This document shows, in pieces, positions 41,947 through 50,964 of a stretch of 64,000 nucleotides of DNA. The notes beneath the pieces are model-generated. The model was not told where the DNA came from and searched no databases. It saw only the letters and a list, made by a program, of their open reading frames with translations. The stretch covers positions 1,054,001-1,118,000 of the forward strand of contig NZ_LR216287.1 of the NCBI RefSeq assembly GCF_900696045.1, read 5' to 3'. The DNA comes from Candidatus Nitrosocosmicus franklandus. Lineage in GTDB: Archaea > Thermoproteota > Nitrososphaeria > Nitrososphaerales > Nitrososphaeraceae. Position 1 is the stretch's first letter; each line of letters opens with the position of its first letter. The position numbers were made by a program, and so were the translations under genes.

Positions 41947-43098
41947 CTATTTTAACATCACTGGTTGTGCATTTACCCGTATACGGAACAGAGTATAGGG
42001 CTTTACACGAATGTCTTTTCCTTTATTATAGCGTCCTTGACGGTGTAGTTGATTAGCAGTAACATACAGATATCCATCGTTTGCAAGGGAAAGTGTATCA
42101 GGCCATAATAGACGAGGATCGTATACAAGAGTCTCCCACAAATTATCCGAATATCTAAGTCGAAGAATTGCATTATGCTCATAATTTGTTGAATATATGT
42201 TTCCTTCAGCATCCGATTCCAGACCGTCCGACGCACCTCCCCTATCTCCATGATTTTGTACTGTGTTTGCAACCTCTTCTTCGGAAATATTGCGGTCAAC
42301 AAGTGCATCTATGGCCACACTGTACAATTTGCGACTTCCTAGTGGACAATAGTATAGCCTGGAACCATCCGAATTTATAGCAATACCGTCAGCACCCATA
42401 CTTGCACCCTGTTTTACTGTTCCGTCAGGTTGACGCTCTAAAAATGGTCTTCCTTCTACAAGAGGAAGAAACGTTCCAAGATCTTCGGGTTTAGTGGAAG
42501 GGTGCTCATTAAGTCGACGCCAGCATTCTCCTGTATGGAGATCAACTACTATGATTGCATTAGACCCTTCCATAGAAGAATCTGTAATAAATGCCATTCC
42601 GTCGTTTCCCCTTCGCAAATCAAAGCGAATATCATTAAGGTAGGTTGTTGGTTGAGCAATTGTTTGAGGAAATAGAATTTTTTTTGTTACCTTGTTGGTA
42701 TCAAGATTTACACAGATCAATTTTGGTCCACCGTATTCTGTAGGTTTGAATAGAGGACTTCCAGTATCGAGAATCCACAATCGATCAACAGGATCCACAA
42801 CTACTGACTGAACAGAGACTAGTTTTGACGCCTGGTCTTCCTGATCCACTTCATTTATTGATTCATTAGGATAAGCAATAGGCCGACCATCTACAATTTC
42901 TGAAACTGTAAACTTGACATCGTCTCCCCATTTTGGAAAGTTTACAAAAATGCGTCCTGTATGAGAAACTGTCACCCCGGTTGGCATGGCATCATTAAAA
43001 AAAGCTACAGGTTCCAATGCACCTAGTGATTCCGAAGAGGGCAGTTCAACTGAGGGAATATCTCTAGATATACCACTTTTTTCAAAATTCTTTGACAC
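41947..43098 (-). CDS. MRJP/Yellow-like beta-propeller protein
   Basis: A 383-residue six-bladed propeller of the major-royal-jelly/Yellow (gluconolactonase-like) clan. Typical blocks are SVVVDPVDRLWILDTG, the TYLNDIRFDLRRGNDGMAFI strand, NAIIVVDLHTGECWRRL, GADGIAINSDGSRLYYCPLG and GLESDAEGNIYSTNYEHNAI. No signal peptide is evident, unlike the insect proteins. The start is GTG at 43096-43098. Bacterial and archaeal members are uncharacterised; lactonase or dopachrome-type activity is only a possibility. Confidence 0.8.
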   Translation of the reverse strand: MSKNFEKSGISRDIPSVELPSSESLGALEPVAFFNDAMPTGVTVSHTGRIFVNFPKWGDDVKFTVSEIVDGRPIAYPNESINEVDQEDQASKLVSVQSVVVDPVDRLWILDTGSPLFKPTEYGGPKLICVNLDTNKVTKKILFPQTIAQPTTYLNDIRFDLRRGNDGMAFITDSSMEGSNAIIVVDLHTGECWRRLNEHPSTKPEDLGTFLPLVEGRPFLERQPDGTVKQGASMGADGIAINSDGSRLYYCPLGSRKLYSVAIDALVDRNISEEEVANTVQNHGDRGGASDGLESDAEGNIYSTNYEHNAILRLRYSDNLWETLVYDPRLLWPDTLSLANDGYLYVTANQLHRQGRYNKGKDIRVKPYTLFRIRVNAQPVMLK

Positions 43099-43848: not shown

Positions 43849-44298
43849 TTAACTTTGTGCTGCTGCGTTACTACCGGTGTTTGTTTGGCTTTGAACGTTA
43901 ATGTTGTTACCAGAACCTACTGTATCTCCACCAGAAACTACTATGCTCCCCTGGTTAGAAGATTGAGATTGGCTAATGCTTTGTTCTGCAGAGTTTCCAC
44001 CTTGTCCGGATTGTGCTAAAGCGTTGTTTCCACTGTTGAACTGATGCTGGAAGCTAGCGTTGTTGCATGAGAAGAATGTACTAGCACCTGAAACACACAG
44101 ACCATTTTGGTTTGATGACTGTGATTGTTCTATCGATTGTTTTGCTTTATTTCCCTTCTTGTTTGTTGCAAGAGCATCATTATCCATGGCTACCAATGGA
44201 CTGGATAATAGAGCCAAAGCGACCACCATTGCAATTGATGCTACAAGCATTTTGTTTTTGTTTGTGTTTTTATGAATATTTTGTGTTTTATTATTCAT
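43849..44298 (-). CDS. Secreted Q/N/S-rich repeat protein (intact copy)
   Basis: A 149-residue exported protein. Signal sequence MLVASIAMVVALALLSSPLVA, then a domain poor in hydrophobics and rich in Gln, Asn, Ser and Gly with two imperfect repeats: KAKQSIEQSQSSNQNGLCVS with SGNNALAQSGQGG, and AEQSISQSQSSNQGSIVVSG with TGSNAAAQS. Two cysteines lie in the first repeat only. The pattern recalls curlin-like or amyloid-forming surface proteins and archaeal fibre proteins; this is inference from composition. A nearly identical copy occupies the last 222 bp of the window. Confidence 0.7.
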   Translation of the reverse strand: MNNKTQNIHKNTNKNKMLVASIAMVVALALLSSPLVAMDNDALATNKKGNKAKQSIEQSQSSNQNGLCVSGASTFFSCNNASFQHQFNSGNNALAQSGQGGNSAEQSISQSQSSNQGSIVVSGGDTVGSGNNINVQSQTNTGSNAAAQS

Positions 44299-46063: not shown

Positions 46064-46990
46064 TTATTTCAAAGATATTTGTTGATAAAATTTTTTGAAT
46101 TTCTCTAATTGGGTTTGTTTTAATTTGGATCGGCGGTTTAGAACTTGATTCCATTCCATAGTATATGAAATTGTAACGTCTTCCAAATTTGATTCAGAAA
46201 AAGCAAGTACAAAAATGTATTTCTTGTTCCAATTCTTTTCATAATATGAAGGATGATCGAAGGATATGGGAAATGCCAAAGTTGAATCTATATGAACCCA
46301 CCGACCCCCTATAAAAGATTCATTCCAACAATGATCCAAGAAATCATGTACAATTCGTGTTTTAATGGAAAAAGAGTTCAATATAGCCCCAAATAGAAAT
46401 GTCCATTCACTACATTTTCCCATCCTATTGTCAGCAATTTCCTTGATTTTACCATACCGAGGGAATGAAAATACAGCATTGCAAAATGAACAATAATAAT
46501 TTTCAATTCCCCTTATCTTCCAGGTATTACCAGGAATATACTCCAAAGTTAATTGGCGACCACAGTTATCACAAGAGGGGTTTTTGTCAACCCATCTCAT
46601 AAAGTCCTTCTTAAACCAGACCATCAATTCCTTTAAAGAGTCTAAAAATGAAGGGGAAAAAGAAGTAGAAGAAGAATCGTGCTTAACATTGCAAACTTCA
46701 TCGCCTTCTTTATCAGTCGAATCATTGCGGATATCAAGATTATTAGTGCTGTGGAAATCACCGTATCCATAATTATTGAAATTTACAACTTCAAATATGT
46801 CTTCTGTTTTAAGTTGCGTTTTGATATTTTTTCTAATTCTTTCTGGTACAAGAAGATTAACATATTGTAGGACATCAGGATCATTGTATTGGCTTGTAAC
46901 CTTTTTGTATAGTATAAAATGCTGTTTAGTAAATGGATAACTAAAACTATTAGTAGACAAATCAAACAATATATTTAGTGAGACGGACAA
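46064..46990 (-). CDS. Peptide:N-glycanase (PNGase/Png1-NGLY1)-like transglutaminase-fold protein
   Basis: A 308-residue protein whose residues about 45-290 follow eukaryotic cytosolic PNGase, which cleaves N-glycans from misfolded glycoproteins. In order: LLVPERIRKNIK helix, LKELMVWFKKDFMRWVDKN, zinc cysteines Cys140/Cys143 and Cys167/Cys170, FPRYGKIKEI, catalytic Cys193 (RMGKCSEWTF), His220 (DHCWNE) and Asp235 (WVHIDST), then YEKNWNKKYIFVLAFS and a C-terminal NRRSKL helix. The Cys-His spacing of 27 equals yeast and human PNGase. There is no signal peptide, so it should be cytosolic. A polar insert (about 75-112) is not family-like. Start TTG at 46988-46990. The activity is inferred; an amidase or protease role is possible. 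Confidence 0.82.
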   Translation of the reverse strand: MSVSLNILFDLSTNSFSYPFTKQHFILYKKVTSQYNDPDVLQYVNLLVPERIRKNIKTQLKTEDIFEVVNFNNYGYGDFHSTNNLDIRNDSTDKEGDEVCNVKHDSSSTSFSPSFLDSLKELMVWFKKDFMRWVDKNPSCDNCGRQLTLEYIPGNTWKIRGIENYYCSFCNAVFSFPRYGKIKEIADNRMGKCSEWTFLFGAILNSFSIKTRIVHDFLDHCWNESFIGGRWVHIDSTLAFPISFDHPSYYEKNWNKKYIFVLAFSESNLEDVTISYTMEWNQVLNRRSKLKQTQLEKFKKFYQQISLK

Positions 46991-48876: not shown

Positions 48877-49866
48877 ATGACAACTAGAAAGTATAAGTTA
48901 TTTGAGAGTACTAGGATAGGAGGTAAAAGAAAGTCAAAAAACTATTTGAACAATAACAGTAGCCTTGCAAAACTCAAGAACAAACAAAAGACTAGTCGTC
49001 AATCGATGAAGATAATTAAAAGGAATAATGTTACTAAAACACAAAATGAAATGTTAACACAACTGGAAAAAGACTATGAGGAATTTAGCAGAACACACAC
49101 CTTTAAATTTCCAACCTGGCTGTATGGACCTCCCAAAGGAAAGTTATTTAAGGTTGAAGTAGAGGATTGTCCTAGATTTGGTGATACAGCATATGTGGAG
49201 TTTGATTCGGCTAGAACAGCATTTATCAGTATAGACATGCAAATTGATTTCTGCGGCCCAAAGGGTTATGTTGACGTCATGAAGTATGATTTGAGTTTAA
49301 CCTCGGCACCAATCAAACCTATACGAAGTGTCTTGGATGTAATACGGAATAAAACCGATATCAGAGTAATACACACCAGAGAGGGTCATCTACCAGATCT
49401 TTCCGATGCGCCATACAATAAAGTACTACGGAGTAAAATCATTGGAGATGGTGTGGGCATAGGCGATACGCCAGTTGGTGGTCTTGGCAGGTTACTGATA
49501 AGGGGTGAAAAAAACTGGGACATTGTAAGGGAACTATATCCAATACAAGGGGAATATGTAATTGACAAAGCAGGAAAGGGGGCGTTTGGGCAAAGCAATC
49601 TGCCGTTGATATTAAGGAATATGGGAATTACCCATCTGGTAATAGCTGGGATCACAGCTGACGTATGTGTTCACACTATTATGAGAGAAGCTAATGATTT
49701 TGGCTACTGGTGTACATTGCTAAAGGATGGAACCGGTGCTACTGACTATGGCAACTATAAGGCTGCAATTAAACAGATAAAGATGCAGGGCGGAGTTTTT
49801 GGATGGGTTACAGATTCTAAGAAATTTGTTAAAAGTGTTCAATCTGCATTCAAGGAGAAAAATTAG
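48877..49866 (+). CDS. Isochorismatase-like cysteine hydrolase (biuret/ureido-amide hydrolase type)
   Basis: A 329-residue cytosolic hydrolase. The catalytic triad is Asp120 (FISIDMQIDF), Lys231 (VIDKAGKGAF) and Cys264 in GITADVCVHT, with the cis-peptide before the nucleophile. The IDMQIDFCGPKGY and VIHTREGHLPDLSD blocks and the Lys-Cys spacing of 33 match biuret amidohydrolase and N-carbamoyl-type enzymes, which release ammonia from small amides. The first 60-90 residues are a basic, Lys/Asn-rich extension absent from most relatives; internal ATGs at 49006 and 49051 could be the true start. Substrate is inferred. Confidence 0.8.
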   Translation: MTTRKYKLFESTRIGGKRKSKNYLNNNSSLAKLKNKQKTSRQSMKIIKRNNVTKTQNEMLTQLEKDYEEFSRTHTFKFPTWLYGPPKGKLFKVEVEDCPRFGDTAYVEFDSARTAFISIDMQIDFCGPKGYVDVMKYDLSLTSAPIKPIRSVLDVIRNKTDIRVIHTREGHLPDLSDAPYNKVLRSKIIGDGVGIGDTPVGGLGRLLIRGEKNWDIVRELYPIQGEYVIDKAGKGAFGQSNLPLILRNMGITHLVIAGITADVCVHTIMREANDFGYWCTLLKDGTGATDYGNYKAAIKQIKMQGGVFGWVTDSKKFVKSVQSAFKEKN

Positions 49867-50249: not shown

Positions 50250-50618
50250 CTATCGAGGCGCATAAAATATTATTAATGCACCTAATAGCACTATAAAGCC
50301 ACCGACTATTTCAAATCTATCCGGTCTCTTCTTATCTAAGATCAATCCCCAGACGATCGCCATCATTACAAAGATTCCTCCATAAGCTGCATATACTCTT
50401 CCAAAATTCGATGGTTGAAAAGTTTGAATTATTCCATACAGAACTAGTATGATGCTTCCTAAAAGTCCAACCGTTAAAGTCTTTTTATCTCTTAGCCAAT
50501 GCCATACAAGGTATCCACCTCCTATTTCAGCTATTGCAGCAATCAAAAACAGTCCAATAGTGGAAAAAAGAAAAATAACGAAAGAGTTAGTCGGAAGTAC
50601 CGATTCCAATTTTTTCAT
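50250..50618 (-). CDS. ynfA: YnfA-family (UPF0060) membrane protein, second of tandem pair
   Basis: A 122-residue four-helix membrane protein. GLFLIAAIAEIGGGYLVWHW (helix 1 with the conserved E-x-G-G-x-Y-x-V-W), GSIILVLYGIIQTFQPSNFG, RVYAAYGGIFVMMAIVWGLI and the P-D-R-F-E-x-V-G-G helix 4 are diagnostic. YnfA is related to small multidrug-resistance transporters and works as a dimer. This start overlaps the end of the first copy by 32 bp, so translation is coupled. Confidence 0.88.
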   Translation of the reverse strand: MKKLESVLPTNSFVIFLFSTIGLFLIAAIAEIGGGYLVWHWLRDKKTLTVGLLGSIILVLYGIIQTFQPSNFGRVYAAYGGIFVMMAIVWGLILDKKRPDRFEIVGGFIVLLGALIIFYAPR

Positions 50619-50964
50619 CCTCTTTACGGGGATAATAAAAAATAACGATAACGCCTATAGCAGCAACAATTGTTCCAGTTATGTCGTAAATATCCGGAAC
50701 AAAGTCCTCAAACAGATACCCCCAGCATAAAGCCATTACAATAAAAATTCCCCCATATGCAGCATATGTTCTATGGAAATGTGTTTTTTGAAATGTTGGA
50801 ACCACCCCATACATAAATAGCACAAGACCGCCTAATACACCAAATATCCAACTATGGCTTTCGCGCAACCATAACCAAACTAAATATCCTCCCCCTATCT
50901 CACATAATCCTGCAACAAAGAAGAAGAATAATGAATACAAAATGGTCTTTATCCTATTATACAA
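50587..50964 (-). CDS. ynfA: YnfA-family (UPF0060) membrane protein, first of tandem pair
   Basis: A 125-residue four-helix membrane protein with FVAGLCEIGGGYLVWLWLRE, GLVLFMYGVVPTFQKTHF and RTYAAYGGIFIVMALCWGYL. It starts at TTG (50962-50964). The C-terminus (RKEDEKIGIGTSD) is encoded in the overlap with the next gene. The two copies differ enough (about half identical) to suggest an obligate heterodimer, as in paired SMR transporters, which is inference. Confidence 0.88.
   Translation of the reverse strand: MYNRIKTILYSLFFFFVAGLCEIGGGYLVWLWLRESHSWIFGVLGGLVLFMYGVVPTFQKTHFHRTYAAYGGIFIVMALCWGYLFEDFVPDIYDITGTIVAAIGVIVIFYYPRKEDEKIGIGTSD

Follow-up and report, generated by a model that had tools for sequence, protein, structure and literature searches.

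A predicted archaeal member of the cytosolic peptide:N-glycanase family in Candidatus Nitrosocosmicus franklandus

The enzymatic deglycosylation of N-glycoproteins in the cytosol is regarded as part of eukaryotic quality control and as tied to the endoplasmic reticulum (ER), an organelle that archaea do not possess. The closest described enzymes are the cytosolic peptide:N-glycanases (PNGases) Png1 of yeast and NGLY1 of mammals. In the yeast PNGase, deglycosylation depends on the same Cys-His-Asp triad that is discussed below (PMC2791212), and activity depends on the CxxC zinc site (PMC9102325). Bacterial PNGase F and the acid PNGases carry the same reaction name as cytosolic PNGase; PNGase F, a secreted enzyme, differs in its fold, which consists of two eight-stranded domains (PMC9102325). 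An earlier report of an archaeal PNGase was not found in the literature that was searched, the scope of which left out most subscription papers.

Here, we describe an open reading frame (ORF) in a stretch of 64,000 nucleotides, hereafter called the window, from the archaeon Candidatus Nitrosocosmicus franklandus, the genome of which comprises 2,836,447 bases on one contig. Because a cultured archaeon encodes a homologue in which the catalytic and zinc residues are complete, it can be tested directly if archaea break down N-glycoproteins as well and if this process predates the ER.

The open reading frame, its residues and its predicted fold

The initial annotation had proposed an ORF at 46064-46990 of the window. 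Its existence was confirmed on the minus strand, whereas its start is probably located at 46969 instead of 46990. Initiation at the TTG at 46990 would yield a protein of 308 amino acids. In close relatives, an in-frame stop codon lies just upstream of a shared ATA-TTG-TTT, and therefore the TTG at 46969, which would yield 301 amino acids, is the likelier start. All sequence motifs that had been named for this ORF were present and in the proposed order, i.e. CxxC, CxxC, FPRY, the Cys-His-Asp triad, and NWNKK..F.LAFS. The first zinc motif is CDNC (C140 and C143; 46562-46573, minus strand, as for all features of this protein), the second is CSFC (C167 and C170; 46481-46492), and FPRY occupies residues 176-179. 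The triad is composed of Cys193 (46412-46414), His220 (46331-46333), and Asp235 (46286-46288). It is followed by NWNKKYIFVLAFS at residues 253-265, which includes W254-N-K256 (46223-46231). A helical segment at residues 22-62 (46805-46927) was recognized from the structural alignment with the N-terminal helices of the mouse and yeast PNGases and from positions that are conserved in the family. The linker at residues 68-111 (46658-46789) is probably disordered; much of it had a pLDDT below 50, it corresponds to a gap in most family members, and in the family alignment it is restricted to the closest Nitrosocosmicus relatives. Neither a membrane segment nor a signal-like hydrophobic stretch was found in the protein (the maximum 19-residue hydropathy was 1.0), and it is predicted to be soluble and cytosolic.

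Forty-two archaeal copies were compared using the yeast numbering, which was anchored on C129 (PMC9102325) and on the triad C191/H218/D235 (PMC2791212). In all 42 copies, W123, C129, C132, C165, C168, R176, C191, E193, W194, R210, H218, W220, E222, W231, H233, D235, Y247, W251, and K253 were retained. Invariance thus extends to the four cysteines of a predicted zinc site of two CxxC pairs (C140, C143, C167, and C170 of N. franklandus correspond to yeast C129, C132, C165, and C168), to the three catalytic residues (Cys193, His220, and Asp235 correspond to C191, H218, and D235), and to W254 and K256 (W251 and K253). The distance of 27 residues between Cys and His, which had been equated with that of the eukaryotic enzymes, was indeed found in all 42 archaeal copies as well as in yeast and mouse. 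The ratio Ka/Ks was 0.08-0.35 in 14 pairs of orthologues, and one further pair was saturated; the gene is under purifying selection.

One position differed from the eukaryotic proteins. In the column of E238 of yeast and mouse, which maps to residues 238-241 (46268-46279), 33 of the 42 archaeal copies contain Leu, the other nine contain Phe, and none contains Glu, although the alignment of this column is uncertain because an insertion of three residues adjoins it, and Glu238 is not an established defining feature of cytosolic PNGases. We take E238, W251, and K253 to be sugar contacts in the complex of yeast PNGase with chitobiose. Given the change at E238 and the insertion, the sugar binding of the archaeal copies may differ from that of the yeast enzyme. 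In the soil relative Nitrososphaera viennensis, the second sugar of the N-glycan core is a uronic acid (PMC12153357), and the loss of a negative charge at E238 would fit this core.

The relationship to PNGases was also evident from database searches. In a phmmer search against the PDB, the only significant matches were the cytosolic PNGases of mouse (E=1e-31) and yeast (7e-28 and 9.5e-28). When a profile of 17 archaeal orthologues was compared with solved structures, PNGases were found at 5.8e-45 and 5.2e-41, and neither a transglutaminase nor any other family was significant. In Pfam, Transglut_core was the only match (1.1e-9), and no NCBIfam model matched the protein. The AlphaFold model (mean pLDDT 82.9, pTM 0.81) contains a predicted zinc ribbon, and the PNGase fold was its closest match. 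For mouse PNGase, the Foldseek value was 2.3e-16 and the structural alignment had a Z score of 21.9 and an rmsd of 4.1 across 244 residues, and for yeast PNGase the Z score was 19.4. The rmsd to the PNGases ranged from 4.0 to 5.0 across about 243 residues, and the match takes in the N-terminal helices. Z scores were 14.4-15.6 for XPC/Rad4 and at most 9.6 for transglutaminases. Sequence matches, the predicted fold and the residue mapping all support the proposed homology to Png1/NGLY1; in the sequence searches as in the tree described below, the archaeal protein did not group with ordinary transglutaminases. Taken together, sequence and model give good support to the family assignment and to the predicted chemistry: the ORF is a real gene under selection, and its product belongs to the cytosolic PNGases.

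Distribution, gene context and origin

The gene was detected in 35 of 70 genomes of Nitrososphaeraceae, representing 10 of 12 genera; this count includes one genome (G015) that matched over an N-terminal stretch only. It is disrupted in three genomes (G013, G014, and G023) and absent from three single-contig genomes (G025, G026, and G042). Patchy and interrupted in some genomes, the gene is dispensable. In one bin (G059), three copies were found on several contigs, which could be due to a duplication or to a mixture of strains. Within the class, copies occur in the Nitrososphaeraceae and in one genus (g20; L089 and L092) of a second family, which the data suggest to be the Nitrosopumilaceae. 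When two PNGase peptide motifs were used to scan about 85,000 species of bacteria and archaea, an approach that would miss divergent PNGase forms, 43 loci were obtained, all of them in records of Nitrososphaerota, and one of these (L108) is virus-like. For the zinc-ribbon form, no relatives were found in plasmids, phage records or viral contigs, and a structure search among viral predicted structures returned no match at E<=0.001; a viral origin of this form was rejected.

Weaker matches elsewhere in the Thermoproteota were devoid of the zinc ribbon. They comprise short soluble proteins of about 170 amino acids (L049-L055) and further proteins (L056-L067), several of which have hydrophobic membrane-like stretches. 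The best match of the short proteins (alignment A3) among solved structures was mouse PNGase (4.1e-25), and their fold had a Z score of 15.0. They share the spacing of 27 residues between Cys and His with the zinc-ribbon form, and, in contrast to it, they have retained a Glu equivalent to yeast E238. The virus-like locus is a 4.9-kb contig of the Thaumarchaeota MAG TA_20 (L108:379-3056), on which a DNA polymerase gene (PHROG families) is directly followed by a gene for a zinc-less PNGase-like protein of 173 amino acids. The contig looks viral, and a virus-borne enzyme of this type could act on surface glycoproteins of the host. For the L108 protein, viral contigs yielded no relatives, and fecal phage records yielded only two matches, both weak and partial.

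In N. franklandus, the PNGase-type gene is surrounded by genes for a DUF72 protein, a DUF1428-like protein, a winged-helix protein, and a MEDS-domain protein. The downstream gene order was retained in only one other locus (L077). Across the loci of the archaeal family, neither a conserved operon nor a glycan-related neighbour was found. The inference of an operon was rejected, since gene order is shared only locally and among the nearest relatives, and other neighbours are clade-specific; no functional coupling follows from this. One such neighbour is a large aminopeptidase-like ORF, which is adjacent to and divergent from the PNGase gene at six loci (L090, L095, L096, and L100-L102); its family was assigned by eye, and some of the six loci share one MAG.

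Several other genes of the window deserve a description. At 41947-43098 (minus strand), an ORF strongly matches the major royal jelly protein family (Pfam PF03022, 3.1e-35), which is unexpected in an archaeon. An isochorismatase-fold protein that resembles biuret amidohydrolase is encoded at 48877-49866 (plus strand), with 277 bits and thus below the cut-off of 370 bits. Two adjoining and overlapping YnfA/UPF0060 genes at 50250-50618 and 50587-50964 (minus strand) possibly encode a paired small transporter. The protein encoded at 43849-44298 (minus strand) is rich in Ser, Asn, and Gln, contains several motifs of the QSQSSNQ type behind an N-terminal hydrophobic segment, and matched no Pfam family above the cut-off; it looks like a secreted surface protein or an amyloid-like protein.

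The phylogenetic position was analyzed with 116 core columns and a sampling that contained two eukaryotic sequences and neither Asgard nor bacterial homologues. The archaeal zinc-ribbon proteins formed one clade (support 91/93, and 76/91 after removal of the longest branches), and the two eukaryotic sequences were placed beside it and separate from it. A group of the eukaryotes with the short zinc-less cytosolic archaeal forms was rejected (p-AU 0.019). A single clade of the archaeal zinc-ribbon proteins and the eukaryotic sequences was neither supported nor rejected with these 116 columns (p-AU 0.265), and it is favoured because the zinc ribbon and the N-terminal helices are shared. Given two eukaryotic sequences and none from Asgard archaea, this tree does not separate a transfer from descent.

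A horizontal transfer from a eukaryote to soil ammonia oxidizers, followed by spread among them, is a serious possibility that, in our judgement, falls somewhat short of being probable. It would explain the narrow and patchy range of the zinc-ribbon copies, i.e. Nitrososphaeraceae and one genus of Nitrosopumilaceae, and it agrees with the rejection of the group of eukaryotes and zinc-less forms. However, the archaeal copies form one clade beside and not inside the two eukaryotic sequences, and the zinc-less relatives in other classes of the Thermoproteota suggest an ancient presence of the core in archaea. A transfer would have no bearing on the origin of the eukaryotic PNGase; it concerns the origin of the gene and is compatible with a function as a deglycosylase. 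More tentatively, the protein could represent a true archaeal PNGase branch that descended from an archaeal core predating the ER and ER-associated degradation (ERAD), with the change at E238 and the insertion as adaptations to the modified, di-N-acetylated N-glycans of the chitobiose type that soil ammonia oxidizers carry. If archaeal descent were true, cytosolic deglycosylation would be older than the ER and ERAD.

Proposed activity and competing explanations

The protein is probably a cytosolic zinc-ribbon Asn-glycan amidase of the PNGase type that serves the salvage of glycoproteins or glycopeptides. Homology, the predicted fold, and the conservation of all catalytic and zinc residues form the observed basis of this proposal, from which activity, sugar specificity, and physiological role are extrapolated. 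In the presumed reaction, which follows the established chemistry of PNGases, His220 and Asp235 would activate Cys193, which would attack the side-chain amide between Asn and the first N-glycan sugar, either in a glycopeptide or in an unfolded glycoprotein. Hydrolysis of the thioester acyl-enzyme would then convert Asn to Asp, and the glycan would leave as a glycosylamine, which would decay to the free glycan and ammonia. The likely role would be the clearance of sugar chains, which would make the protein available for degradation and its nitrogen-rich glycan for reuse. Nitrogen-rich N-glycans have been proposed to be a nitrogen store in ammonia oxidizers (PMC12153357). The reaction bears on this proposal, since for each site the glycan and one ammonia would be given back.

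An oligosaccharyltransferase (STT3/AglB) is encoded in the N. franklandus genome and in all 35 good genomes that were sampled in the class, and N-glycoproteins should therefore exist in N. franklandus. In Nitrososphaera viennensis, the N-glycan is a hexasaccharide whose core is of the chitobiose type; it is carried by the S-layer protein and by multicopper oxidase proteins, and no such N-glycan was seen in the marine N. piranensis (PMC12153357). Because AglB is encoded and a chitobiose-core glycan is present in a soil relative, N-glycans are a plausible substrate class. N. franklandus is a cultured soil ammonia oxidizer that does not contain the S-layer protein gene slp1 (PMC6776761), and Nitrosocosmicus may bear an amino-sugar glycocalyx in place of an S-layer (PMC6776761; PMC11559005). 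The lack of the S-layer protein, the main N-glycoprotein known from N. viennensis, counts against a glycan amidase in N. franklandus, as do the change at E238, the patchy presence of the gene, and the absence of a glycan-related neighbour. Moreover, if the three single-contig genomes without the gene are those of Nitrososphaera, the enzyme may be missing from the only species whose glycan is known.

Some of these observations would also be expected if the PNGase fold and an active triad were directed at another amide, for example in a transglutaminase, protein deamidase or peptidase reaction, and if the altered pocket near yeast E238 reflected a non-glycan substrate. This explanation, which we regard as unlikely, would account for the loss of Glu238 in all 42 copies and the neighbouring insertion, for the missing genomic link to glycan genes, and for the lack of an S-layer protein in the host, and it has a precedent in the Arabidopsis PNGase, which also has transglutaminase activity (PMC9102325). 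However, the zinc ribbon as well as W220, E222, W231, W251, and K253, PNGase features that go beyond the triad, were conserved in 42 of 42 copies, and the match of the predicted fold to PNGase was far above that to transglutaminases. Both argue against this explanation.

It is very improbable that the protein is not an enzyme at all and has a structural or adaptor function like the inactive XPC/Rad4 or those filamentous fungal PNGases in which the triad is mutated. XPC/Rad4 has the same fold and was the second-best structural match, and loss of the triad has been reported for filamentous fungal PNGases (PMC9102325), but Cys, His, and Asp are invariant in all 42 archaeal copies and the gene is under purifying selection. 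The probability of a chance match of motifs, a misassembly or a eukaryotic contamination is negligible, these being refuted by the E value of 1e-31, the occurrence in many independent genomes, the synteny in close relatives, and the closed single-contig genome.

Comparison with known systems

With classical transglutaminases, the archaeal protein has only the match to the Transglut_core domain in common, and the structural Z score was about 9, compared to 21.9 for PNGase. XPC/Rad4 proteins have the same fold, but they are inactive and bind DNA, whereas the archaeal protein has an intact triad and a zinc ribbon. The degenerate triad and the DNA-binding beta-hairpin domains of XPC/Rad4 were not found in it, and a length of 301-308 amino acids leaves no room for the latter. 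The closest described system is Png1/NGLY1 (EC 3.5.1.52; structures 2F4M, 2F4O, 1X3W, and 3ESW). The order of the elements is identical, including the zinc ribbon with two CxxC pairs, the triad with its Cys-His spacing, the surrounding Trp, Arg, and Glu residues, and the NWxK motif, and the N- and C-terminal helices are shared in the structural alignment with the predicted archaeal model. The differences are the Leu or Phe in the column aligned with E238, next to the three-residue insertion, and the disordered linker in N. franklandus and its closest relatives. Animal PNGases in addition contain a PUB domain and a C-terminal sugar-binding domain, whereas neither of the two is present in the archaeal protein.
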